This document shows, in pieces, positions 9,942 through 29,968 of a stretch of DNA of 37,256 nt (position 1 is its first letter; each line of letters opens with the position of its first letter). The position numbers and the translations under genes were made by a program. Under the pieces are notes generated by a model. The model was not told the DNA's origin. It ran no database searches and saw nothing but the letters and a program-made list of their open reading frames with translations. The stretch lies in the IMG/VR virus record IMGVR_UViG_3300032893_000175, positions 1 to 37,256 of that record; one strand, given 5' to 3'. Source of the DNA: a virus.

Positions 9942-10553
9942 ATGCGTACCAAGACCGTGTTCCTCGCGCTTCTCCTGCTCGCCGGTTGCGCCACCAACGC
10001 CCCGGTCAAGCAGGAGCTCGCCAACTCGGTGCTCCTCGACGGCGACGACGACTCGTGCTCCGGCACGGCGGTGAGCGACCGGCTCGTGCTCACCGCGTAC
10101 CACTGCCACGTCATCACGAACATCGTGGCGTACCAGGAGTATCCGACAATCACCAAGCACGCGTTCATCCGCGTCGTCAAGTCCGACGAGGCGAGCGACC
10201 TCATGCTCCTCGAGTTCTCCCCCGGCTTCGTGCCGGTCGAGCTCGCGGGCGACGACGACCGCCCGCAGATCGGCGACCCCATCCAGCTCGTCGGTTGCCC
10301 GATGGGGCACTGCAACACCGTCACGGAGGGCTACATCTCCGCGCTCCTCGACAAGAAGCACGACAAGTTCGTGTTCTCTGCGGCGGCGTTCCCGGGCGGC
10401 TCGGGCGGCGGGGTCTTCTGGCACGGGAAGCTCATCAGCGTCCTGCAAGCCATCGGGTACGAGCAGTTGAACCCGATAAGCCAGAACTACGCCCCCAGCA
10501 TCAGCTACGGCTCCACGCTCGAGGCGTTCCGGGCGTTTGTCAAGGGGATGTGA
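9942..10553 (+). CDS. Lipoprotein trypsin-like serine protease
   Basis: A 203-residue protein with a type II signal peptide: KTK-type n-region, FLALLLLA, lipobox LAGC with Cys16. The chymotrypsin-fold triad is visible: H54 in LTAYHC, D86 in ASDLMLLEF and S154 in FPGGSGGGVF. C39, C55, C119 and C124 could form disulfides. It is probably a membrane-anchored, exported peptidase (S1 or DegP-like core without PDZ). It is preceded by a clear Shine-Dalgarno sequence (GGAGGAG) and followed by a strong terminator. Such a gene has no role in virion assembly, so a role in the infected cell envelope is likely: exclusion of other phages, host-surface change, or help with lysis. The target is unknown. Confidence 0.85.
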   Translation: MRTKTVFLALLLLAGCATNAPVKQELANSVLLDGDDDSCSGTAVSDRLVLTAYHCHVITNIVAYQEYPTITKHAFIRVVKSDEASDLMLLEFSPGFVPVELAGDDDRPQIGDPIQLVGCPMGHCNTVTEGYISALLDKKHDKFVFSAAAFPGGSGGGVFWHGKLISVLQAIGYEQLNPISQNYAPSISYGSTLEAFRAFVKGM

Positions 10554-10802: not shown

Positions 10803-11108
10803 CTACTTTTTAACGAACCTTCCGTGCTCGTCGCGCGGGTTGCGGATCCGCGCCCAGCGCGTATTCGACGCGTGGCTGGCGCGGGCGCTCCGCTCCCTCG
10901 GGGAGCGGGCGGCCTGCGATGCGCGGCCCGCGATCGCCGCGGCCTCCCGTGCGGTGAGCTCCTTCTTTTTCGTGCTCATGAGAGAGAGGATAGCACGAAT
11001 GCGGACGCGTGGGAAAGGGGGTGTGGACAACGGGCTTGCATGCGGACGCGTGGGCATGGTACAGTCCCGGCGTCGGGTTTTAGCAGGGGCCGCACCCTGA
11101 CGACATAA
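10665..11108 (+). CDS. Doubtful Cys-rich open frame
   Basis: ATG 10665 opens with MSVQNCGSCGACPGMRGSMF, a Cys/Gly/Pro-rich start that looks non-random, and a weak ACGGAT sits 7 bases upstream as in the leaderless genes of this phage. The frame then runs through the opposite-strand gene at 10803-10979 and the operator region, where it becomes Arg-rich and looks like shadow coding. It may be a short gene whose end I cannot place, or chance. No function is suggested. Confidence 0.2.
   Translation: MSVQNCGSCGACPGMRGSMFPPWNPLTGAPRKEPAAGASRPPPSGNLLFNEPSVLVARVADPRPARIRRVAGAGAPLPRGAGGLRCAARDRRGLPCGELLLFRAHEREDSTNADAWERGCGQRACMRTRGHGTVPASGFSRGRTLTT
10803..10979 (-). CDS. Small basic protein, the only minus-strand gene (58 aa)
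   Basis: The start is ATG at 10979 reading leftward; the -10 element TGCTATCCT lies exactly 7 bases upstream, so the message would be leaderless. A longer frame to 11114 is rejected because it crosses the promoter. The protein is strongly basic and Ala/Ser/Arg-rich: MSTKKKELTAREAAAIAGRA, then ARASHASNTRWARIR and DEHGRFVKK. The first part could be a short helix-turn-helix, but I cannot confirm it. Its position, divergent from the early operon and next to the operator copies at 10999 and 11040, suggests an early regulator, possibly autoregulated. Confidence 0.7.
   Translation of the reverse strand: MSTKKKELTAREAAAIAGRASQAARSPRERSARASHASNTRWARIRNPRDEHGRFVKK
10987..10995 (-). promoter_or_regulatory. 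Extended -10 promoter on the minus strand (TGCTATCCT)
   Basis: Read on the minus strand, TGC TATCCT ends at 10987, and 7 bases separate it from ATG 10979. A copy of the operator-like repeat (10999-11016) lies immediately upstream. Confidence 0.65.
10999..11057. promoter_or_regulatory. Two operator-like repeats at the divergent early promoters
   Basis: ATGCGGACGCGTGGG occurs at 10999-11013 and again at 11040-11054; the second extends to ATGCGGACGCGTGGGCAT, differing from the perfect palindrome at 14326 at two symmetric positions. One copy abuts the minus-strand -10, the other the plus-strand -10. Between them TGTGGACAA (11022-11030) is a DnaA-box-like sequence on the minus strand. Likely binding sites for a regulator. 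Confidence 0.7.
11057..11065 (+). promoter_or_regulatory. Early promoter (TGGTACAGT)
   Basis: Extended -10 TGG TACAGT directly follows the operator copy at 11040-11057. TTGCAT at 11036-11041 could be a -35 with an 18-base spacer. The leader to ATG 11126 is about 55 bases, A/C-rich just before the start (ACACACACCTACCCACC). Confidence 0.6.
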
Positions 11109-11125
11109 ACACACACCTACCCACC

Positions 11126-11263
11126 ATGAGACAGACGGACCAGATGACGCGCCTCGAGCTCTTCCAGGAGCTCGCCGGGTACGCGCATCCCACGTGGTAC
11201 CAGCTCGTGTTCGGATATACGACGCCGATGCTCCGCGCGCTCGTGGCCTACTATCGCCACTAG
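11126..11263 (+). CDS. Small early protein (45 aa)
   Basis: First frame after the early promoter. It begins MRQTDQMTRLELFQELAGYA and ends in a hydrophobic, aromatic stretch (WYQLVFGYTTPMLRALVAYY). Codon use matches neighbouring genes (GAGCTC, CTCGTG). No family is recognised. The aromatic tail could be a membrane-associated helix or a protein-binding helix. There is no Shine-Dalgarno sequence. Confidence 0.5.
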   Translation: MRQTDQMTRLELFQELAGYAHPTWYQLVFGYTTPMLRALVAYYRH

Positions 11264-11299
11264 CGCTTTCGTTTTATTTACCCACTCACACACCAAGCA

Positions 11300-11443
11300 A
11301 TGAAAAGGTTGACAGAATCGCAAGTCGAGGAGATCCGCACGCTCCACCGCGAGGGTTGGAGCGAGCGCGAGATCGCTCGCAAGATGGGCTGCTCGCGCAG
11401 CGCGGTATGGGCCCGTCTGCAGACGGCTAAGTCGGCGCGCTAG
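11300..11443 (+). CDS. Small helix-turn-helix protein (47 aa)
   Basis: The protein is essentially one resolvase/Hin-type HTH: MKRLTESQVEEIRTLHREGW leads into SEREIARKMGCSRSAVWARL, where EIARKMG is the first helix and SRSAVWARL the recognition helix. The start ATG 11300 follows an A/C-rich leader (CACTCACACACCAAGCA). The stop lies 1 base before the Sak4-like gene. A DNA-binding role is likely, and it is one candidate for binding the ACGCGT operators nearby. There is no catalytic domain, so it is not a recombinase. Confidence 0.75.
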   Translation: MKRLTESQVEEIRTLHREGWSEREIARKMGCSRSAVWARLQTAKSAR

Positions 11444-11444
11444 T

Positions 11445-12395
11445 ATGGCGGCCGCAATCAGAAAGGCCGAACGGCAGAAGGCGAAGCTCCGGCTCGCGCT
11501 CGCGGGGCCGTCCGGCTCCGGCAAGACGATGAGCGCGCTCAAGCTCGCGCGCGGCGTCGTCGGGCCGGAGGGGCGCATCTGCATGATCGACACGGAGCGC
11601 GGCTCCGGCGACCTCTACGCGGGGCTCACCGACTACGACATCATCACGCTCGCGCCGCCGTTCAAGCCGTCGGCGTACGTCGAGGCGCTCCACGACGCGG
11701 AGGCGGCGGGCTACGACATCATCATCGTCGACTCGCTCTCGCACGCGTGGATGGACGAGGGCGGGCTCCTCGACCAGGCAGACAAGATGGAGGCCTCGGG
11801 CAAGAACCGCTTTACCATGTGGGCGGAGCTCACGCCGCAGCATCGCGCGCTCGTGAACGCCCTCCTGCAGAGCCCGAAGCATCTCGTCGTGACCATGCGC
11901 TCCAAGCAGGAGTACGCGCTCGAGAAGGACGAGAAGACCGGGAAGAATCGGGTCCGCAAGCTCGGCATGGGCGTCGTCCAGCGCGACGGCATCGAGTACG
12001 AGTTCACGGTTCTCCTCGACATCGAGCAGAACCACCACGCGCACGCGAGCAAGGACCGCACGGCCATGTTCGACGACGAGATCTTCCTCATCGACGAGAA
12101 GACCGGCCAGCGGCTCGCGACGTGGCTGAACGAGGGCAAGGATGCGCCGCCCGAGAAGGCGAAGAGCGCCGCGGAGGAGCTCTCCCCGGCGAAGAAGCGC
12201 ATCCTCATCGGCGACCTCATGGACGAGCTCGGCTCGCCGATCCGCGGCGCGGACGCGGAGCTCGCGCGCTCGGCCATCATCGCGAAGACGGGACTCGCGC
12301 CGAGCGAGGAGAACCTCGCCGAGATCATCACCCGCCTCGAGACCATCAAGCTGACCGGCAGGCACGAGGGCGCGGGGGAGGAGATCCACTACTAG
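11445..12395 (+). CDS. Sak4-like RecA-fold ATPase (single-strand annealing/recombination)
   Basis: A 316-residue P-loop protein. Walker A is GPSGSGKT at residues 21-28, and a Walker B-like strand YDIIIVDSLSHAW lies near residue 90. The motifs MIDTERGSGDLYA and HLVVTMRSKQEY match phage nucleotide-binding proteins of the Sak4/AAA_24 group, RecA-fold ATPases that aid single-strand annealing in phage replication and repair. The C-terminal 70 residues are helical and charged. It is the largest early gene, 1 base after the HTH gene and 3 bases before a coiled-coil gene that often accompanies such ATPases. Confidence 0.8.
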   Translation: MAAAIRKAERQKAKLRLALAGPSGSGKTMSALKLARGVVGPEGRICMIDTERGSGDLYAGLTDYDIITLAPPFKPSAYVEALHDAEAAGYDIIIVDSLSHAWMDEGGLLDQADKMEASGKNRFTMWAELTPQHRALVNALLQSPKHLVVTMRSKQEYALEKDEKTGKNRVRKLGMGVVQRDGIEYEFTVLLDIEQNHHAHASKDRTAMFDDEIFLIDEKTGQRLATWLNEGKDAPPEKAKSAAEELSPAKKRILIGDLMDELGSPIRGADAELARSAIIAKTGLAPSEENLAEIITRLETIKLTGRHEGAGEEIHY

Positions 12396-12398
12396 CGT

Positions 12399-12830
12399 AT
12401 GGCGAAATCAAAGCTCGCGCAGCTCAAGGAGCTCGGCGAGGCGCTGTACCTCCTGCGCCGCGAGATCGAGGTCGTCGAGGCCGAGTCGAAGGCGGTGCTC
12501 GACCCGCTCAAGAGGAGGAAGGACGAGCTGCAGGAGGAGATGCGCGCCCTGTTCGGCGAGGTCGGGCTGGCGAGCATCAAGAACGAGGCCGGGGAGACGA
12601 TCTCCGTGGTCCCGAAGAAGGAGTACGTCGTCGTGAACGAGATCTACGCCCTCCCGTGGGCGAAGGAGCACGGCGCGGTGCGCATCGACTCGCGGCTCCT
12701 CGCGCAGAAGCTCTCCGCGATGGAGCCGGAGAAGGTGCCGGCCGAGGCGTTCCAGCTCGTCGAGTCGAGCTATATCAGCGTGCGTAAACCCGCCCCTCCG
12801 AAGAAGGAGGGCGGCACCAACGAATCATGA
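12399..12830 (+). CDS. Coiled-coil phage protein, Gp157-like
   Basis: A 143-residue protein whose first 50 residues form a likely coiled coil (LKELGEALYLLRREIEVVEA, then VLDPLKRRKDELQEEM). A small alpha/beta domain follows (IKNEAGETISVVPKKEYVVV, IDSRLLAQKLSAM). This resembles siphovirus Gp157-type proteins, which usually neighbour recombination ATPases; their biochemical role is not settled. The stop overlaps the next start (ATGA). A hairpin (12791-12813) sits in its last codons and could act as an attenuator. Confidence 0.6.
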   Translation: MAKSKLAQLKELGEALYLLRREIEVVEAESKAVLDPLKRRKDELQEEMRALFGEVGLASIKNEAGETISVVPKKEYVVVNEIYALPWAKEHGAVRIDSRLLAQKLSAMEPEKVPAEAFQLVESSYISVRKPAPPKKEGGTNES

Positions 12831-13357
12831 AAAACAGCAATCGCTTGTTCTGGTCGGTGCTCCTTATCGCGATCCTCGGCGTGGTGTTCGGCGGCGTGTG
12901 GCAGGCCGTAGACGACCACAGGCGGACCGCCGAGGCTGACTGGGCGCCGGGGCAGGGCTCGTCCGGCGAGCTGACGCCGAGTCCGGCGACCACCACCACG
13001 TTCGTCGTGTACCGCGAGCCGTCGGTGAGCTACATCCAGCGCCCGGACTTCGAGATCCACCCGAACACGTCGGGGCGGGCGGAGCTCATGGTCGTCACTG
13101 TGGCGCTCACGGTCGGCGACGCGAAGGGCGACCGCGGCTCCGCGACCGTGTGGATGGAGTCCGGCGACACGGTTCCGTACGGCACGACGCAGTCGGAGGC
13201 GTCGCTCTCCCTCGACACGCCGGGAGGGGCGCAGGAGACGCAGGAGGTCGTCCTGACGGCGCTCGTGCCCGCCGGCTCGACCTACCAGCTGAACTCCGAG
13301 GGCACCGGGGCGTACCGCATCGGCCAGATAGTCAACTGGGCCGTCTACGGCCTATGA
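12827..13357 (+). CDS. Membrane-anchored protein sharing a C-terminal domain with a tail fibre protein
   Basis: A 176-residue protein with an N-terminal signal anchor (about 8-27, FWSVLLIAILGVVFGGVWQA), a Pro/Ser/Thr linker, and a C-terminal beta domain (about 78-176). That domain is clearly related to residues 159-253 of the tail protein encoded at 7214: NTSGRAELMVVTVALT matches NNTGRAQLHVVTIAIT, and EVVLTALVPAGSTYQL matches EVVLTFLVKVGGTYYI. The protein would place a fibre-like domain outside the membrane of the infected cell early in infection. Superinfection exclusion by receptor blocking is a reasonable inference. It overlaps both neighbours by ATGA. Confidence 0.75.
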   Translation: MKNSNRLFWSVLLIAILGVVFGGVWQAVDDHRRTAEADWAPGQGSSGELTPSPATTTTFVVYREPSVSYIQRPDFEIHPNTSGRAELMVVTVALTVGDAKGDRGSATVWMESGDTVPYGTTQSEASLSLDTPGGAQETQEVVLTALVPAGSTYQLNSEGTGAYRIGQIVNWAVYGL

Positions 13358-13614
13358 TCGCCCGCCAGGAGTCGGTGAAGGTCGTGTACGGCGCGCTCGA
13401 CACGCTCTTCGCGCGGCCGCTCGCGGCCATCGTCAACGGCGGCAGGGACCCGGCGATATACCGGCTCACCCGCCTCTCGTCCGACGAGATCGCGAACCTG
13501 CTCGAGACGGGCGACCCGGACAAGGACCCGCCCGTCGTGCGCACCGGGAACGCGGGCATCGCGGCCGACGAACCGAGGGGCGCCGGCGGGGGCGGCGAGG
13601 GAAGCCATGGCTAG
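13354..13614 (+). CDS. Small early protein of unknown function (86 aa)
   Basis: ATG 13354 overlaps the previous stop. It begins MIARQESVKVVYGALDTLFA and has a helical first half (RDPAIYRLTRLSSDEIANLL). It ends in a Gly/acidic tail (GAGGGGEGSHG). No family is recognised. It overlaps the next gene by 8 bases, which suggests coupled translation within the early operon. Confidence 0.65.
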   Translation: MIARQESVKVVYGALDTLFARPLAAIVNGGRDPAIYRLTRLSSDEIANLLETGDPDKDPPVVRTGNAGIAADEPRGAGGGGEGSHG

Positions 13615-13846
13615 GCTCGACCGCGGCAGCGGCCTCTCGGGGCTGAGTTCCGACTATAGCTCGAAGAAGTGCCCCGGCGGTCCGCACATGAAGACGACGA
13701 TCAGGCGGGTGCGCCAGTCCGTCGCGCCCATCCTCGGGTCGCTCGAGCAGCGCGAGATCCTCGGCGCCGAGGCGGACGTGTGCCTCAAGGGCGGCTGCCG
13801 GCACTACACCGACATGAGCAGGGTTCCTAACTGGAGGCTGGCATGA
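13607..13846 (+). CDS. Small early protein (79 aa)
   Basis: Overlaps its neighbours at both ends (8 and 4 bases). The protein has a Ser/Gly-rich start (MARLDRGSGLSGLSSDYSSK), a basic helix (MKTTIRRVRQSVAPILGSLE) and a Cys/His cluster (DVCLKGGCRHYTD) that might bind a metal. No family is recognised. It is part of the run of small, tightly packed early genes between 12.8 and 14.2 kb. Confidence 0.6.
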   Translation: MARLDRGSGLSGLSSDYSSKKCPGGPHMKTTIRRVRQSVAPILGSLEQREILGAEADVCLKGGCRHYTDMSRVPNWRLA

Positions 13847-14079
13847 ACCGCGAAACGTTCGCCGCCGTGCTCTTCGTCTCGGTGTGCACCTCGCTCGGCA
13901 TCTCCTTCCTGGTGTACGCGGTCCGCGAGGACGCGAAGGTGCGCTGCTACGAGGAGGCGGACTTCGCCAGGGCCAACCCGCGCTTCTTCGTGTACCAGAG
14001 CGAGTTCGACCGGTGCGCGAAGAGCGGCGTGAACATACCAGCGGTCATAAGCCAGGACTTCCATGAACCACAGCGTTAA
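13843..14079 (+). CDS. Small membrane protein (78 aa)
   Basis: One N-terminal membrane segment at about 6-26 (FAAVLFVSVCTSLGISFLVY) is followed by a short charged domain with two cysteines (KVRCYEEADFAR, FDRCAKSG). Topology would place the C-terminal domain either outside or in the cytoplasm; the charges around the segment do not decide. It is the second membrane protein in this early cluster, after the one at 12827. No family is recognised. Confidence 0.6.
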   Translation: MNRETFAAVLFVSVCTSLGISFLVYAVREDAKVRCYEEADFARANPRFFVYQSEFDRCAKSGVNIPAVISQDFHEPQR

Positions 14080-14236
14080 AAACGGGATCCCGGGCACCTA
14101 CGTCTGCGTCGAGACGGACTGCGGCAAGGAGTTCGAGATCACGGAGGAGGACCTGCACCGGTGCAGCGTGAACGGCTGGAAGCCGCCGCTCCGGTGCTCT
14201 ACGTGCCGGCACAAGCGGCGCCCGAAGGTCCACTGA
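14063..14236 (+). CDS. Small zinc-ribbon protein (57 aa)
   Basis: Too short for ordinary gene calling, but it has a clear pattern: a first Cys pair (CVETDC, residues 15 and 20), FEITEEDLHRC, and a second pair CSTC followed by RHKRRPK. This looks like a zinc ribbon of the type found in small nucleic-acid-binding proteins. The start ATG 14063 lies inside the preceding gene by 17 bases. It is the last gene before a hairpin and the promoter of the replication initiator. Confidence 0.65.
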   Translation: MNHSVKNGIPGTYVCVETDCGKEFEITEEDLHRCSVNGWKPPLRCSTCRHKRRPKVH

Positions 14237-14249
14237 TCGGTTCTCCCGA

Positions 14250-14272
14250 GGCCCCGGATGCGAAGCGGGGCC
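14250..14272 (+). terminator. GC hairpin after the first early operon
   Basis: GGCCCCG (14250-14256) pairs with CGGGGCC (14266-14272), flanked by partly complementary TTCTCCC and GGGAAAA. No T-run follows, so termination strength is uncertain. Confidence 0.4.
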
Positions 14273-14287
14273 GAAGGGAAAACTGAG

Positions 14288-14348
14288 TTGTGCACAGCTT
14301 TCCCACAGGCTTATCAACTAACGCAATGCCGACGCGTCGGCATAGAAT
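14288..14348 (+). promoter_or_regulatory. Promoter/operator region of the replication gene
   Basis: DnaA-box-like TTGTGCACA (14288-14296) and TTTCCCACA (14299-14307) precede a perfect 18-bp palindrome, ATGCCGACGCGTCGGCAT (14326-14343). A -10-like TAGAAT (14343-14348) overlaps its last base. ATG 14360 follows 11 bases later, so the leader would be about 5 bases. A protein on the palindrome would directly cover the promoter. Confidence 0.75.
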
Positions 14349-14359
14349 AGGCGCGACGA

Positions 14360-15070
14360 ATGTACTACATCACGATCAGCAACGGGCTCCTCAGGGACGG
14401 CCACCGGAAGCGGATGGGCTCGGCCGTGTGGGAGTTCATGTGGCTCATCGACAAGGTGACCCGGATCGAGGCGAACGGGAGCGGCGTGGTGCTCGGCGGC
14501 AAGCCGGTGAAGCTCGAGGAGATCGCGGAGGCGCTCGAGGTCCACGCCGTCACCGTCTCGGAGAACCTGTCGAAGCTCGAGGAGGAGGGGTACATCAAGA
14601 AGACGGTCGCCCCGTACGGCCTCGTGCTGCGCGTGATGAAGATGAAAAAGAGGTTTAACCAGAAGGCTAAACCTGCCCCGGCCGGCGAGGAAATGGCTAA
14701 ACCTCGCAAGGAAAAGGCTAAACCTAATAAGACAATAGCAGTAGACAAGACAGTAGATACCGCGGCGGTCGCCGCGGCGGTTCAAAGATTCAACATGCAG
14801 GAGACCAAGGCGAAGTGGTACGCGGGGACGGACGTCACGTTCCAGCTCCTCGCGTGGTTCTTCGACCGGAAGGGGCTCTGGCCGCGCCTCGACTCGCGGG
14901 CGAAGGTCAACGCGGCCGTGCAGCGGCACATCCGGGCCGCGCGCACGATCGTCCGCGCCGAGTGGACGCAGGCGGAGTGCTCGCGGGCGCTCGCCAAGAT
15001 GCTCGAGGCGAACCCGAGGATGCGGGACGAGTGGACCCTCGAGACCCTGGTAAAATACCTAACGAAATAA
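14360..15070 (+). CDS. Replication initiator, lambda O-like, with internal iterons
   Basis: A 236-residue protein. Residues about 20-95 form a winged helix-turn-helix (VWEFMWLIDKVTRI, VKLEEIAEALEVHAVTVSEN, EEEGYIKKTV), typical of phage replication initiators. A Lys/Pro linker with three AKP words follows (about 103-122), then a helical C-terminal domain (FNMQETKAKWYAGTDVTFQL, EWTLETLVKYLTK) that may recruit a host helicase or loader. The linker DNA holds repeated GGCTAAACCT, as iterons do inside the lambda O gene. No helicase, primase or polymerase is encoded, so host replication proteins are presumably used. Confidence 0.65.
   Translation: MYYITISNGLLRDGHRKRMGSAVWEFMWLIDKVTRIEANGSGVVLGGKPVKLEEIAEALEVHAVTVSENLSKLEEEGYIKKTVAPYGLVLRVMKMKKRFNQKAKPAPAGEEMAKPRKEKAKPNKTIAVDKTVDTAAVAAAVQRFNMQETKAKWYAGTDVTFQLLAWFFDRKGLWPRLDSRAKVNAAVQRHIRAARTIVRAEWTQAECSRALAKMLEANPRMRDEWTLETLVKYLTK
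14651..14760. other. Candidate replication origin: iterons plus AT-rich segment
   Basis: GGCTAAACCT occurs at 14665-14674, 14695-14704 and 14716-14725, with an inverted near-copy AGGTTTAACC at 14651-14660. The following 35 bases (14726-14760) are unusually AT-rich for this genome and could unwind. The arrangement within the initiator gene mimics lambda-type origins. Confidence 0.55.
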
Positions 15071-15074
15071 AACC

Positions 15075-15230
15075 ATGATTCACACGAGCAAGCAGATCTG
15101 GCTCGACCAGCGCGGGGGAAGGACGCTCGAGGACGTCCTGGTCGACCACGCGGGCGGCGGCGAGTACGTCACCATGCGCGGCGAGCGGGGCGACATCGTG
15201 AGGGTGTTCCTGCCCTCCCACCTGCTATGA
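15075..15230 (+). CDS. Small early protein (51 aa)
   Basis: Begins MIHTSKQIWLDQRGGRTLED after an A-rich leader (ATAAAACC) and ends VRVFLPSHLL. The composition is mixed, probably a small beta-rich fold (YVTMRGERGDIVRVF). The stop overlaps the next start (ATGA at 15227). Codon use fits the surrounding genes. No family is recognised. Confidence 0.55.
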   Translation: MIHTSKQIWLDQRGGRTLEDVLVDHAGGGEYVTMRGERGDIVRVFLPSHLL

Positions 15231-15673
15231 CCGACATCCCGCGGTTCAAGAACGAGAAGCAGGAGGCGCCGGTCCCGGTGCGGCGCGTGTACCTCGACAG
15301 CGAGCTCGCCGAGTTCGAGGAGGAGGTCCGCGGCCACATGCGCGAGCACCCGGGCGCGAGGGGGCGCGAGTACGCCGAGCGCGTGCTCTGCCTCGCCGGC
15401 GGGGGGCGCATGGGCGAGTACATGGGGCGCGCGGTCATGTACGCGCACCCGCTCCAGCAGCCGGCCGCGGCCGACAAGGTCGAGCAGTGGAAGCGGTGGC
15501 ACGCGCGCACGTTTCCGTTCGACCGGCTCCGCGCGTACGACGAGTGGCACCGGCAGGATTGCGAGGTGAAGGAGGCGAAGCGGTCGGACGCCGAGAAGGC
15601 GGTCGCGCGCGACGCAGCCATGCGGGACATATACCCGACGGAGGAGGTGAACCCGGAGGACATCCCGTTCTGA
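15227..15673 (+). CDS. Early protein of unknown function (148 aa)
   Basis: Mostly helical and charged. The N-terminal section has VYLDSELAEFEEEVRGHMRE, the middle has a Gly-rich turn (CLAGGGRMGEYMGRAVMY), then KVEQWKRWHARTFPFDRLRA and an acidic end (PTEEVNPEDIPF). I do not recognise a domain. It overlaps the previous gene by 4 bases and is 2 bases from the next, so it is an operon member downstream of the replication initiator. Confidence 0.65.
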   Translation: MTDIPRFKNEKQEAPVPVRRVYLDSELAEFEEEVRGHMREHPGARGREYAERVLCLAGGGRMGEYMGRAVMYAHPLQQPAAADKVEQWKRWHARTFPFDRLRAYDEWHRQDCEVKEAKRSDAEKAVARDAAMRDIYPTEEVNPEDIPF

Positions 15674-15675
15674 AC

Positions 15676-15957
15676 ATGGACGACGCGCAGCAGAAGGCGG
15701 CGAGGCGGGAGCACATGGACCGGATATTCGCCGCGGTGAGCAAGCGCAAGACCCTCATGACGAACGAGTGGCTCGAGGGGTTCGCCGCCGGCGTGTCGCT
15801 CGCGATCGGCGCGTTCGAGGCGCACGGGAGCTTCGGGGACGCGCGGCGCGACCTCGTCCGCGACGGGACCATCGCGCTGAACGTCGCCGAGGACCGGCGG
15901 AAGGCCGCCCGGGCGGCCGCGGGGTTGTCCACAGGCGATACGGACGCGTTCGCATAG
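15676..15957 (+). CDS. Small helical early protein (93 aa)
   Basis: Begins MDDAQQKAARREHMDRIFAA, with a helical middle (LMTNEWLEGFAAGVSLAIGA) and an Ala/Arg-rich end. A longer upstream frame exists but overlaps the previous gene fully, so ATG 15676 is used. Its last codons contain the DnaA-box-like and operator-like sequences for the next promoter. No family is recognised. Confidence 0.6.
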   Translation: MDDAQQKAARREHMDRIFAAVSKRKTLMTNEWLEGFAAGVSLAIGAFEAHGSFGDARRDLVRDGTIALNVAEDRRKAARAAAGLSTGDTDAFA

Positions 15958-15969
15958 GCGTGGTAGCAT
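15925..15969 (+). promoter_or_regulatory. Promoter/operator for the 15977 operon
   Basis: TTGTCCACA (15925-15933) is a DnaA-box-like sequence. Four bases on comes ATACGGACGCGTTCGCAT (15938-15955), a degenerate copy of the 18-bp operator. The extended -10 TGGTAGCAT (15961-15969) follows, 7 bases before ATG 15977, giving a leaderless message. Confidence 0.7.
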
Positions 15970-15976
15970 GTACGGC

Positions 15977-16462
15977 ATGAGCAAGTACAGCGGGAGCATG
16001 AGCATCATCGACTCGGATGGAAACGTCGCGTTCGAGCGCGAGTTCACGCAGGACGAGGTGGTGGAGATTCTCCTGAAGGAAATGGAGAAGGTCGGCGGCC
16101 GACCCGTCGGGACGATGCTCGGCTTCCCGGTGAGAGTGACGAAGGAGCCCGCCGGCTCGCCGCTTCCGGCGCGCCGCGTCGCGAAGAAGGACGAGGACGC
16201 CGGAAGCGGCCACGCGTGCTGCGGGTCGAAGGGGAGCCGGCACAAGAAGGGGTGCGCGAACGCCGGGACTTCGGCGGCCGGACGGAAGGCCGCAGGAAAG
16301 GGCGGCGCCGGGAAGTTCAGCGAGCCGACGTACCACGCCATCAAGACGCTGCAGACGAAGGACATGACGGCGACGGAGATCTCGAGGAGCAAGGGGTTCG
16401 ACCATGCCGAGGTAGTGCGGATCATGGAGTCTGGCAGCTACGGCGAGTACATGAAGTCATGA
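15977..16462 (+). CDS. Putative DNA-binding regulator with Cys cluster (161 aa)
   Basis: ATG 15977 is chosen over ATG 15968 because the latter overlaps the -10 element. The N-terminal part is an acidic alpha/beta region (SIIDSDGNVAFEREFTQDEV). The middle carries HACCGSKGSRHKKGC, a possible metal site, then a basic Ala/Gly linker (GRKAAGKGGAGK). The C terminus looks like a helix-turn-helix (AIKTLQTKDMTATEISRSKG, FDHAEVVRIMES). It has its own operator-bearing promoter, so autoregulation is plausible. Target unknown. Confidence 0.6.
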   Translation: MSKYSGSMSIIDSDGNVAFEREFTQDEVVEILLKEMEKVGGRPVGTMLGFPVRVTKEPAGSPLPARRVAKKDEDAGSGHACCGSKGSRHKKGCANAGTSAAGRKAAGKGGAGKFSEPTYHAIKTLQTKDMTATEISRSKGFDHAEVVRIMESGSYGEYMKS

Positions 16463-18122: not shown

Positions 18123-18607
18123 ACCACGAACCAAAGTGTTGCGAGAACCCAAAGTGGAGCGGCGGATACCTCGACGTAGCGTGTGTGATTAAAAGATGTA
18201 TTTGTGGTGCTCCGATGCTCGCAACCAACCCTCCGAAAAAAGAGGGATGGGAAGAAGAGTTTGACGATTACTTCGGGCATCTCGTCTTAGGGACTTTGTC
18301 TGGAGACGAGAAAAGTCCTGTCTTCGTGAACAACGAGCTGGAAGTGCCGCGACTAAAGAATTTCATCCGCACCCTCCTCGCACAGGCTACGGAGAAGTCC
18401 GATAAGCTCGTCGAAGCAATCCACCTGTACAATACGGACGCGGTAAAAGCTCTCGCACAGGCTAGGAGTGAGGGGAGGAATGCGGCGGTGGATGCAATCC
18501 TCGCGCGATTCCCGAAAGAAGATACCGAGGAAAACTGGGTAGCGTTCGCGCAGATTTATAAGGTGAATGACATCGTGGAAGCCGCCCGTAATGACACTAG
18601 CCTATGA
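18119..18607 (+). CDS. Early protein in a low-GC mosaic segment (162 aa)
   Basis: Begins with a Cys-rich part (PKCCENPKWSGGYLDVACVI, KRCICGAP) that may bind zinc. An acidic region follows (GWEEEFDDYFGHLVLG), then a long helical region (LKNFIRTLLAQATEKSDKLV, EAARNDTSL). The RNFIRTLLAQ-type helix and following residues are common in small phage proteins of unknown role. Codons such as AAA, GAA and ATT contrast with the rest of the genome. ATGA overlap with the RusA-like gene. Confidence 0.65.
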   Translation: MNHEPKCCENPKWSGGYLDVACVIKRCICGAPMLATNPPKKEGWEEEFDDYFGHLVLGTLSGDEKSPVFVNNELEVPRLKNFIRTLLAQATEKSDKLVEAIHLYNTDAVKALAQARSEGRNAAVDAILARFPKEDTEENWVAFAQIYKVNDIVEAARNDTSL

Positions 18608-19029
18608 TCGAGGTCTCCTTCGTCGTCCGCGGCAACCAGGAGAACCCGGAGGGGAACCCGGTGCCGTACCAGCGCACGCTGAACCACTCGTGGACGAGGG
18701 CGGCGACGCGGTACCGCGACTGGCAGGAGTACGTGCGCGCCGAGTTCTCCCGGTCCGCGAAGATACGGCACGCGCCGGGCGAGCACCCCGAGGAGGCCGT
18801 CGACATGGCGCGCGGGGCGGTGAAGATCCCGCCCGGGCACGAGGCCGAGGTGGAGCTCCAGGCAGTGTTCGGGAGCGGCGCGCGCGGCGACCTCGACAAC
18901 GTGCTCAAGGGGATCCTCGACGCGCTCTTCGAGCAGGACCGCGACGTCGTCCACGTCGAGGCGACGGCGATGCGCGGGAGGAAGGGGCTGGTCGCCGGGC
19001 GGATTACAATAACCGAGGCAATGCAATGA
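18604..19029 (+). CDS. rusA: RusA-type Holliday junction resolvase
   Basis: A 141-residue protein. The diagnostic motif is GDLDNVLKGILDALFEQD at about 95-112, with D96, D98, N99, K102 and D106 in the expected RusA spacing, and a following strand VVHVEATAMRGRKG. RusA enzymes are dimeric metal-dependent nucleases that cut four-way junctions, and in phages they trim replication intermediates before packaging. Length is close to the family norm of about 120-140. The N-terminal section (YQRTLNHSWTRAATRYRDWQ) fits too. GC content returns to the genome norm here. Confidence 0.85.
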   Translation: MIEVSFVVRGNQENPEGNPVPYQRTLNHSWTRAATRYRDWQEYVRAEFSRSAKIRHAPGEHPEEAVDMARGAVKIPPGHEAEVELQAVFGSGARGDLDNVLKGILDALFEQDRDVVHVEATAMRGRKGLVAGRITITEAMQ

Positions 19030-20228
19030 CCGACCTGACCTGGCGCACGGAGCGCCGCCGCATCTCCGACCTCGTGCCGCACCCGAACAACCCGCGCAAG
19101 ATGAGCGAGGAGCAGGTCGAGCAGCTGCGCTCCTCCATCGAGCGGTTCAACCTTGTCGAGATCCCGGCCATCGACGCGGACAACACCATCCTTGCCGGGC
19201 ACCAGCGGCTCAGGGTGATGCAGCTCATCGGCCGCGGGGAGGAGGAGGTCGAGGTGCGCGTGCCGAGCCGGCCGCTCACGCCGGAGGAGCGCGACGAGTA
19301 CCTGATCCGCAGCAACAAGAACGTGGGCGAGTGGGACTTCGACCTACTCGCAAACTTCGATGAGCCGATGCTTCTCGCAACCGGCTTCTCAAAGGTGGAG
19401 CTCCACGAACGCTTCGGCCTGCAGGGTCCCGCGACCGAGGACGATTTTGATGAGGAATCCGAGCGCGATGCCGTCTCGGACGCCAAAAGCAAACTGGGCG
19501 AGGTCTACCAGCTCGGCCGGCATCGACTGCTGTGCGGCGATTCGACCGACCCGGCGCAGGTGGCGATCCTGATGGACGGAGCGAAAGCGGATATGGTCTT
19601 CACCGACCCGCCGTACAATGTCAACTATACCTACGCGAAGTACGAGTCGCTCAACAAACCGCGCCGAAAGAAATTCATGCATGGCGGAGCTATTTTCAAC
19701 GACAACATGCCTCCGAAAGAGTTCGAGGCGTGGCTCGGCAAAGTCTTCAAAAATGCCTACGATTTCAGCACTGACGAATCACCGGCGTACGTCTGCCACT
19801 CAACCTCCACCCAGGAACAGTTCTTCCATGCTCTTGCGGATGAGGGCTACCACTACTCGCAGACGATACAGTGGATCAAAGAGCGATTCATCCTCGCGAT
19901 GGGCCAGGACTTCCACCGGGTGTGCGAGCCGATGTGGTATGGGTGGAAAGAAGGCAAAACACGCTTCACGAACAAACTGATGACCCGGGCGATGAACGTG
20001 TGGCATCTCACCGAGATGCCGCTTGAGGAAGCTCGCGAGGTGATCCTGCGTGAACACGCGGACGACCTTCTTGAGGAAATCGATGCATGGCCTATCCCGC
20101 GCGATAAGAGCGCTGACTACCAGCACCCGACACAGAAACCGGTGCGCCTCCCCGCAATCGCTATCCGCAAGAGCTCGCCACCCGAAGGCCGCATACTCGA
20201 TTTATTCGGCGGGGGGGTGCGACGCTGA
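19026..20228 (+). CDS. ParB-like/DNA methyltransferase, reading frame broken at a G7 tract
   Basis: As read, 400 residues. Residues about 11-80 are a ParB/sulfiredoxin-like domain (RISDLVPHPNNPRKM, ILAGHQRLRVMQ). The methyltransferase part has TDPPYNVNY (DPPY at 194-197), QHPTQKPV near 366-373 and the start of the SAM motif DLFGGG. DPPY before FGG is the beta-class order of N6-adenine or N4-cytosine enzymes. The frame fails at seven Gs (20211-20217); one more G restores FGGGGATLIAAEQLGR and a further 39 residues to TAA 20342-20344, giving 439 aa. From about 19330 on, codons are more AT-rich than in neighbours, a sign of transfer. Specificity unknown. Confidence 0.8.
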   Translation: MTDLTWRTERRRISDLVPHPNNPRKMSEEQVEQLRSSIERFNLVEIPAIDADNTILAGHQRLRVMQLIGRGEEEVEVRVPSRPLTPEERDEYLIRSNKNVGEWDFDLLANFDEPMLLATGFSKVELHERFGLQGPATEDDFDEESERDAVSDAKSKLGEVYQLGRHRLLCGDSTDPAQVAILMDGAKADMVFTDPPYNVNYTYAKYESLNKPRRKKFMHGGAIFNDNMPPKEFEAWLGKVFKNAYDFSTDESPAYVCHSTSTQEQFFHALADEGYHYSQTIQWIKERFILAMGQDFHRVCEPMWYGWKEGKTRFTNKLMTRAMNVWHLTEMPLEEAREVILREHADDLLEEIDAWPIPRDKSADYQHPTQKPVRLPAIAIRKSSPPEGRILDLFGGGVRR

Positions 20229-28075: not shown

Positions 28076-29968
28076 ATGAGACGGTACGCGGCCATCGCGC
28101 TCGTCATCCTCCTCTCGACCGGCGTCGTGTTCTACGAGGCCGGGCTCAACCGCGCGTTCGCGACGACGTGCGTCTCCGGCACGCCGGTCGGCGGCAACTG
28201 CCAGGTCGTCCTCGACAGCGGGTCCGGGACAGGCAACCAGACGTGGACCGTGCCGAGCGACTACTCGGCGCTCGTGAAGATCGAGTGCGTGGGCGCCGGC
28301 GGCGACGGGGTGAAGAGCGGCACGGCGCAGCGCCCGGGGCCCGGCGGCGGCGGCGGCGCGTACGCCTCGACGACCGTCCTCAAGATAACCGAGACGGAGA
28401 CCACCTCGACGACGTGGACCGCGCCGAGCGGCGTGACGGCCGTCACGATAAAGGCCTGGGGCGGCGGCGGCGGTGGTGGTGGCGCAGCGAACTCGGCGAT
28501 TTTGGGAGGCGCCGGCGGTGGCGGAGGCGCGTACAGCGAGAGCGACAACGTTTCGGTCACTCCAGGGAACTCATACACGATCACGGTCGGCAAAGCTGGA
28601 ACGGCTGGCGCGCAGTCATCCTCCGGGAATGCCGGGGATGGTGGAGACTCGATGGCAATCTCAAGCTCGACCGTGCTCGCCAAGGGCGGCGGCGGCGGCG
28701 CGAACCAGTCCTCGGCCGTCGCCAGCGGCGGCGCGGCCGCTTCCGGCGCGGGAAACACCAAGACGAGCGGCGGCAATGGCGCGGGCGGTGCTTTCGCGGC
28801 CGGCGGCGGCGGGGGCGGATCGGGCGGGGACACTACTGGCGGCGGGAACGCGTCCGGGACCACGGGCGGGTCGGCGGGGACGACGAACGGCGTGGCAGGC
28901 GCGAACGCGGACGCCGCGGGCTCCGCGTTCGGCGGAGGCGGCGGCGGAATCAGTGCTTCAAATACGGGCGACGCCGGCGGCGCGGGGCGCGTCACTCTGA
29001 CGTACCAGAAGACGCTCTCACCCGGCGACTCGGTCTCGTATTCGATCGGCGCGAACGCGACGACCACCGCCGGGACCGCGGCGAATCAGACCTATCTGGG
29101 GAACACCACGGCCGCAAGCTCCGCGATCGCGTGCGACTACGGCCGGAAGTCGTCGAGCGCGACGGCCGGCGGGGCCGGGGGCTCGATCGCGAACTCCATC
29201 CCGTCCTCCGACACTTCGACCGGAGGCTCGTACGCGGGCGGAAACGGGGGCTCGGTCACCAACAGCAACGGGCGCGCTGGCTCAGGCGGCGGCGGCTCCG
29301 GCGGGCCAACGGGACCCGGCAAGAACGGCGGCAACGGCGCGAGCAACACGAACATAAACAACGGCGGCGGCGGCGGCGGCTCGAACGGCGGATCCTCGAC
29401 CGCAGGCACGAACGGACCGACGAGCGGAACCACGGGCGGCAACGGAGGCCAGGGAACGAGCGGAAGCGGCCAGGGAACCGGCGTGGCGGGGTCGGACGGC
29501 AACAACGCGACTATCGGCGGCGGCGGCGGCGGCGGCGGAGTCAACCCGACGTCCGGCGGCGCGGCGCACAACGGCGGCAACGGCGGCATGGACACCGCGT
29601 TCGACGCGAGCCACGGCGCGAGCGGCGCCGGCGCGGGCGGCGCGGGTGCGACGACCACGAACGCGCTCGGCGGGAACGGCGGGAACGGGGGCACCTACGG
29701 CGGCGGCGGCGGAGGAGGCGGAGGATCCGGCTCGGGCGGCACGAACGGGTCGCTCGGCGCGGGCGGCGACGGGGTGATCGTGATCCTGTATACGCCGGCC
29801 GCGTCCCCCCCCGCGTCCTCCGGCGGCCTCCAACAGGTGAACCTCTCTTTTCCGTTCTCGCTCGCCTTCCCGCCGGTCCGCGCGCGGTTGTCCACACGCG
29901 CGACAGCGCGGCGGCGCTTGACAGGTGCTAGGATGGGCGCATCGGGAGCTCGCGCCGGTGGAACCTAA
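28076..29968 (+). CDS. Exported glycine-rich protein
   Basis: A 630-residue protein with a Sec-type signal peptide: RR n-region, AAIALVILLSTGVVFY, cleavage about after AFA29. Beta segments (QTWTVPSDYSALVKIECVGA, TWTAPSGVTAVTIKAWGGG) alternate with long Gly/Ser/Asn/Ala-rich stretches typical of glycine-rich adhesion proteins and of phage fibre tips. The product of 5748 has the same style without a signal. The last 35 residues are Arg-rich and may be non-native: DNA near the end holds a DnaA-box-like sequence and a promoter. It overlaps nothing and follows the previous gene by 2 bases. Confidence 0.75.
   Translation: MRRYAAIALVILLSTGVVFYEAGLNRAFATTCVSGTPVGGNCQVVLDSGSGTGNQTWTVPSDYSALVKIECVGAGGDGVKSGTAQRPGPGGGGGAYASTTVLKITETETTSTTWTAPSGVTAVTIKAWGGGGGGGGAANSAILGGAGGGGGAYSESDNVSVTPGNSYTITVGKAGTAGAQSSSGNAGDGGDSMAISSSTVLAKGGGGGANQSSAVASGGAAASGAGNTKTSGGNGAGGAFAAGGGGGGSGGDTTGGGNASGTTGGSAGTTNGVAGANADAAGSAFGGGGGGISASNTGDAGGAGRVTLTYQKTLSPGDSVSYSIGANATTTAGTAANQTYLGNTTAASSAIACDYGRKSSSATAGGAGGSIANSIPSSDTSTGGSYAGGNGGSVTNSNGRAGSGGGGSGGPTGPGKNGGNGASNTNINNGGGGGGSNGGSSTAGTNGPTSGTTGGNGGQGTSGSGQGTGVAGSDGNNATIGGGGGGGGVNPTSGGAAHNGGNGGMDTAFDASHGASGAGAGGAGATTTNALGGNGGNGGTYGGGGGGGGGSGSGGTNGSLGAGGDGVIVILYTPAASPPASSGGLQQVNLSFPFSLAFPPVRARLSTRATARRRLTGARMGASGARAGGT
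29888..29934 (+). promoter_or_regulatory. Promoter with DnaA-box-like sequence upstream
   Basis: TTGTCCACA at 29888-29896 is followed by TTGACAGGTGCTAGGAT at 29918-29934, the same TTGACRGGTGCTA block as before the portal gene. The -10 would be TAGGAT (29929-29934), 47 bases before ATG 29982. It overlaps the end of the Gly-rich gene. No ACGCGT operator copy is present here. Confidence 0.6.

Follow-up and report, generated by a model that had tools for sequence, protein, structure and literature searches.

Predicted operators of one phage-encoded regulator at four early promoters of a putative Paceibacteria phage

Four 18-bp sites that share an ACGCGT core, one at each of four early promoters of a phage genome, are probably the operators of a single phage-encoded DNA-binding protein, most likely a dimeric repressor of the early genes. 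Patescibacteria phages are almost all uncultured, and our search of the literature found no paper on the control of transcription in these phages or in their hosts. The four predicted operators, together with their small candidate proteins, make up a concrete early-gene circuit that is open to in-vitro tests.

The window, that is, the whole stretch of 37,256 bp analysed here, is a phage contig from an IMG/VR virus record with a GC content of 66.7%. Direct repeats of 197 bp, 99% identical, lie at its two ends, and the genome is therefore probably complete at about 37.06 kb. It encodes tail-tube, tape-measure, terminase, portal/Mu-F, head-protease and major-head proteins, and related phage records show 39-62% identity in the portal and 46-74% in the capsid protein. 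The capsid alignment placed relatives mainly in Patescibacteria MAGs, those of Kaiserbacteria, Nomurabacteria and Taylorbacteria among them, and from this the host very probably belongs to the class Paceibacteria. Comparison of the phage AAA protein gave no indication of the host. Contig PKVY01000081.1, which is binned as Acidobacterium sp. and is possibly mis-binned, also has a capsid gene belonging to this group of Patescibacteria phages. Other genes in the window include a fusion of a ParB-like domain with a DNA methyltransferase (18567-20228; phrog_498, phrog_620) and, adjoining the early region, a trypsin/HtrA-like protease (9942-10553) in which LLAGC is a putative lipoprotein signal.

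A sequence-only reading of this DNA had described a family of four palindromes, one of them perfect. All four sequences are present where they had been placed (Table 1), and the site at 14326 indeed pairs at nine of nine dyad positions. The family resemblance holds for the sites at 11040 and 15938, which each pair at seven of nine, but the site at 10999 is hardly palindromic (5/9) and consists of one good half-site, turned towards its minus-strand -10, and one poor one. A symmetric matrix made from the four sites scored them at 26.3, 25.2, 23.9 and 21.5 bits, against 9.7 bits for the next-best position in the window; the genome scan that could have refuted the motif, by equally good matches in coding regions, thus showed nothing comparable elsewhere. 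When each site was omitted from the matrix in turn, it still fell among the first four ranks. The half-site ACGCGTNSGCAT occurs six times in the window, every time within one of the four sites, whereas 0.06 occurrences were expected and 300 order-3 Markov sequences gave two at most. Near-identical dyads are found at each of the four early promoters and nowhere else in the window. One of them, at 15938, is also coding, as it lies within the last codons of the ORF 15676-15957 rather than between genes.

Table 1. Predicted regulatory elements and associated genes (window coordinates).
Feature	Position	Strand	Evidence or remark
Predicted operator TTTCCCACGCGTCCGCAT (minus-strand reading), leftward promoter	10999..11016	-	single good half
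Predicted operator ATGCGGACGCGTGGGCAT, rightward early promoter	11040..11057	+	
Predicted operator ATGCCGACGCGTCGGCAT, initiator gene promoter	14326..14343	+	perfect palindrome
Predicted operator ATACGGACGCGTTCGCAT, 15977 operon promoter	15938..15955	+	
-10 TATCCT, extended (TGC)	10987..10992	-	consensus match only
-10 TACAGT, extended (TGG)	11060..11065	+	consensus match only
-10 TAGAAT	14343..14348	+	consensus match only
-10 TAGCAT, extended (TGG)	15964..15969	+	consensus match only
DnaA-box-like TTGTCCACA	11022..11030	-	sequence match
Degenerate DnaA-box-like TTGTGCACA	14288..14296	+	more weak copies at 14299, 14311
DnaA-box-like TTGTCCACA, 39 bp upstream of TAGCAT	15925..15933	+	sequence match
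DnaA-box-like TTGTCCACA, 41 bp upstream of extended -10 TAGGAT (29929)	29888..29896	+	
58-aa basic protein, leaderless-type start	10803..10979	-	7 nt past -10
47-aa HTH protein, candidate regulator	11300..11443	+	Pfam HTH_38 E 4e-8
Replication initiator / helicase loader, winged helix	14360..15070	+	phrog_7498 E 3e-25
Four GGCTAAACCT iterons in initiator gene, probable replication origin	14651..14725	+	
161-aa candidate regulator gp15977, leaderless-type start, HTH-like bundle at C-terminus	15977..16462	+	

Every site had been said to lie within 8 bases upstream of a -10 element, and this was confirmed, the distances running from a 1-bp overlap to 8 bp. Read along the direction of transcription, the half-site ACGCGTNSGCAT points towards the -10 at all four sites. 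At 14326 its end, CGGCAT, overlaps TAGAAT by one base; at 11040 two bp intervene (GGGCAT-GG-TACAGT), at 10999 six bp on the minus strand (CCGCAT-TCGTGC-TATCCT), and at 15938 eight bp (TCGCAT-AGGCGTGG-TAGCAT). Three of the four promoters carry an extended -10 (TGn). Their -35 hexamers are poor, which would explain why a sigma-70 scan called no promoter at the four sites. The start codons of the 58-aa gene and of the 15977 gene (ATG) lie 7 nt past the -10 and that of the initiator gene 11 nt past it, suggesting that two of the mRNAs are leaderless and one is nearly so; in the 11126 unit the leader measures about 55 nt. The sequence-only reading overlooked these starts, as well as a second element that the promoters have in common.

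A protein bound at the core promoter, touching the -10 or just upstream of it, would exclude RNA polymerase, and four units would be co-regulated in this way: the leftward 58-aa gene, the operon 11126-14236, the operon that begins at 14360 with the initiator gene, and the 15977 operon. Steric repression appears the most likely mode of action because the sites lie against or within the -10 region at a spacing that varies by 9 bp; the 9-bp spread alone does not separate a repressor from other roles. The sites are of unequal quality, the one at 14326 being a perfect dyad and the one at 10999 little more than a half-site, and their affinities may differ accordingly. Between the starts of the sites at 10999 and 11040 there are 41 bp, or about four helical turns, a spacing at which proteins could bind cooperatively across the divergent region.

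The encoded proteins bear on this proposal in both directions. Two of the operons under the proposed control encode predicted HTH proteins, which supports the reading of the sites as repressor operators, and the regulator is probably either the 47-aa HTH protein or gp15977. With either of them the circuit would be autoregulatory. The 47-aa protein gave a weak match, which is not significant, to the KorA/ArdK plasmid repressors (E 0.03). In gp15977 the C-terminal HTH-type helical bundle was modelled with fair confidence (pLDDT about 86); a fold search with the model returned no significant match. Against the proposal are the absence of a visible dimerisation domain from the 47-aa protein, the failure of our search to find relatives of gp15977, and the absence of the motif from related phages. 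The 58-aa protein, put forward at first as a third candidate beside these two, showed no detectable DNA-binding or other family. The original suggestion of a single regulator for four early promoters has good support from the motif statistics and from the uniform placement of the sites. A tRNA-Arg called by ARAGORN at 10868-10952, antisense within the 58-aa gene, has no Rfam support and is probably false.

Because the perfect site at 14326 adjoins the initiator gene, we considered whether the palindromes are sites of the initiator gp14360 itself, serving as origin or in autoregulation, as O-type initiators act on dyads of about 18 bp. The winged helix of gp14360 and its helicase-loader/O-like homology would agree with this. 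However, the initiator gene holds iterons of its own: GGCTAAACCT has four matches in the window against 0.68 expected, and all of them lie within 75 bp in the part encoding the initiator linker, where they overlap the stretch of the early region that is richest in AT. At the corresponding place in the gene, two relatives that share the N-terminal domain carry repeats that differ from these (L003, 545-616; L004, 8339-8399), and they have no ACGCGT dyads. The initiator therefore probably binds sites other than the palindromes. Moreover, the iterons are clustered by AT-rich DNA, as those of O-type initiators are, whereas the four palindromes are scattered across 5 kb. These data make the initiator an unlikely owner of the palindromes and suggest a lambda-type origin inside its gene. 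The structure model of the initiator was of too poor a quality for use, and a GC-skew minimum at 10.5 kb was dropped as evidence for an origin, as relatives show no matching pattern. In a probable initiator gene of another phage (L007, 12181-12230) we noted two copies, 32 bp apart, of the palindrome GTTACGCGTAAC, which has the ACGCGT core found in the window and different arms.

A second alternative is that the palindromes are activator sites, at which a phage protein beside the -10 helps the polymerase at promoters with poor -35 hexamers, possibly in the manner of MerR. In favour of this, the conserved half always faces the -10. Nevertheless, a distance that varies from overlap to 8 bp is a poor fit to activation, and the site at 14326 overlaps the -10 itself, so that we regard this role, too, as rather unlikely.

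If the phage instead made use of the sites of a host regulator, one would expect promoters that otherwise keep the host layout, which they do, but also host genomes with the same sites. None of 384 host-class genomes contained any match to ATGCNNACGCGTNNGCAT, and the sites did not correspond to a host regulon, SOS-like or other; a host regulator is thus largely refuted and very improbable. The same absence is as expected for a phage-specific regulator. Chance resemblance in DNA of this GC content, for which one could cite that the ACGCGT core itself is not enriched in the window (20 seen, 23.5 expected), is refuted by the half-site count and by the 12 bits that separate the fourth site from the best match after it, and hardly deserves credence.

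Conservation in relatives, which had been named as a check on the motif, was not found. Among 15 related records, a search for exact or near copies gave one match with two mismatches, which is no better than the control. The viral collection contained no record with motif and box together, and the strict palindrome occurred there in two contigs only, with no visible relation or promoter context. When each relative was searched for palindrome families of its own, none rose clearly above its own Markov null, the exception being a small excess in G004. The relatives reached, among which the records nearest to the window may be missing, share at most 72% identity with the window in any early protein, and the absence of the motif from them is therefore weak counter-evidence to the proposed phage operators.

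Dispersed operators of a phage repressor are of an already known kind. In phiC31, conserved inverted repeats are bound by the c repressor, and there, as proposed here, palindromic operators of about 17-18 bp are dispersed over the early region near early promoters and would answer to one repressor. The phiC31 sequence is unrelated, however, and the window has four sites only and candidates for the regulator. The plasmid repressors KorA and ArdK are small HTH proteins, each with palindromic sites at more than one promoter, which resembles the arrangement of the small HTH candidate and its putative sites, although the operator sequence differs and the 47-aa protein departs from these repressors as described above. 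In the Cluster A mycobacteriophages L5 and Bxb1, one repressor acts at many dispersed sites whose consensus differs between phages of the group; each genome has 24-34 of these stoperators, which are asymmetric 13-mers and for the most part lie away from promoters (PMC3029335). A single phage repressor with dispersed sites is likewise what we propose here, but the window has four dyads, all at promoters, and does not show the asymmetric, intergenic sites in one orientation that mark stoperators. With the pR/O/oriLambda arrangement of lambda the window shares iterons and AT-rich DNA in the initiator gene and DnaA-box-like sequences upstream of the initiator promoter, whereas homology of the initiator to O is weak (phrog_678, E 0.002), the operators are unrelated to OR, and a role of DnaA is putative here. 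DnaA is known to activate ori-lambda and is a known transcription factor (PMC8203912).

The second element of the promoters is a DnaA-box-like sequence upstream of the -10. Of the three copies of TTGTCCACA in the window, the one at 11022 starts 38 bp, the one at 15925 39 bp and the one at 29888 41 bp before a -10. The copy at 11022 is placed symmetrically between the divergent -10s, each of which lies 38 bp from the far edge of the box. The promoter at 14326 has degenerate boxes only. Box and palindrome are separable, since the comparison promoter at 29888 has the box without the palindrome. The form TTGTCCACA fits a TTWTNCACA-type 9-mer, and most host cases have TTATCCACA, the canonical DnaA box. 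In the phage clade, TTNTCCACA was found 17 times, and in nine cases a -10-like hexamer follows it at 36-41 bp; among 11 occurrences of reversed or scrambled motifs, none was so followed. Phage records G006 and G007 show this recurrence of the box upstream of -10s.

The same layout was found in the host class. In 167 kb of sequence from a Taylorbacteria genome, at least six of seven copies of TTATCCACA precede such a -10, and at one of these promoters the interval between box and -10 holds the palindrome GTGAACGTACGTTCAC, a close variant of which occupies that interval in a Nomurabacteria genome. In two Patescibacteria genomes (L120, 7338; L084, 1528), the space that separates TTATCCACA from the -10 contains an SOS-like palindrome, GTGAACGNNCGTTCAC; this filling of the same interval supports the reading of the phage sites as putative operators. 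Across 55 Paceibacteria genomes, TTATCCACA-N18-48-TATAAT occurred 159 times, whereas the backward pattern and a scrambled box before the same TATAAT each occurred 5 times, an enrichment of about 30-fold over the scrambled control. The spacing between box and -10 in the 150 cases listed peaks at 39 bp, with smaller peaks near 31 and 50 bp, which is the helical phasing expected for a protein that touches the polymerase. In a phylum-wide sample made up mostly of other genomes, the enrichment was far lower (30 versus 9 backward).

From the identity of the boxes we infer that DnaA may be the factor acting at them. We tentatively suggest that Paceibacteria and their phages could have one promoter design in common, where a DnaA box, TTNTCCACA, helically phased at about 31, 39 or 50 bp before the -10, supports promoters with a poor -35; DnaA, or another protein with its specificity, might then be a widely used activator, and the phage would slot its own repressor operator between box and -10. 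Such a class-wide element is a more unusual result than the operators. If true, it would give a rule for locating promoters in Paceibacteria genomes, and early transcription in the phage, together with a set of host genes, could be linked through it to the replication initiator. In phage record G006, a gene on the minus strand (about 36578-36460) encodes a 40-aa ribbon-helix-helix-like protein and starts 6 nt past a -10; further upstream are TTATCCACA and the dyad GTGGCG-C-CGCCAC, the same layout with a different type of regulator.
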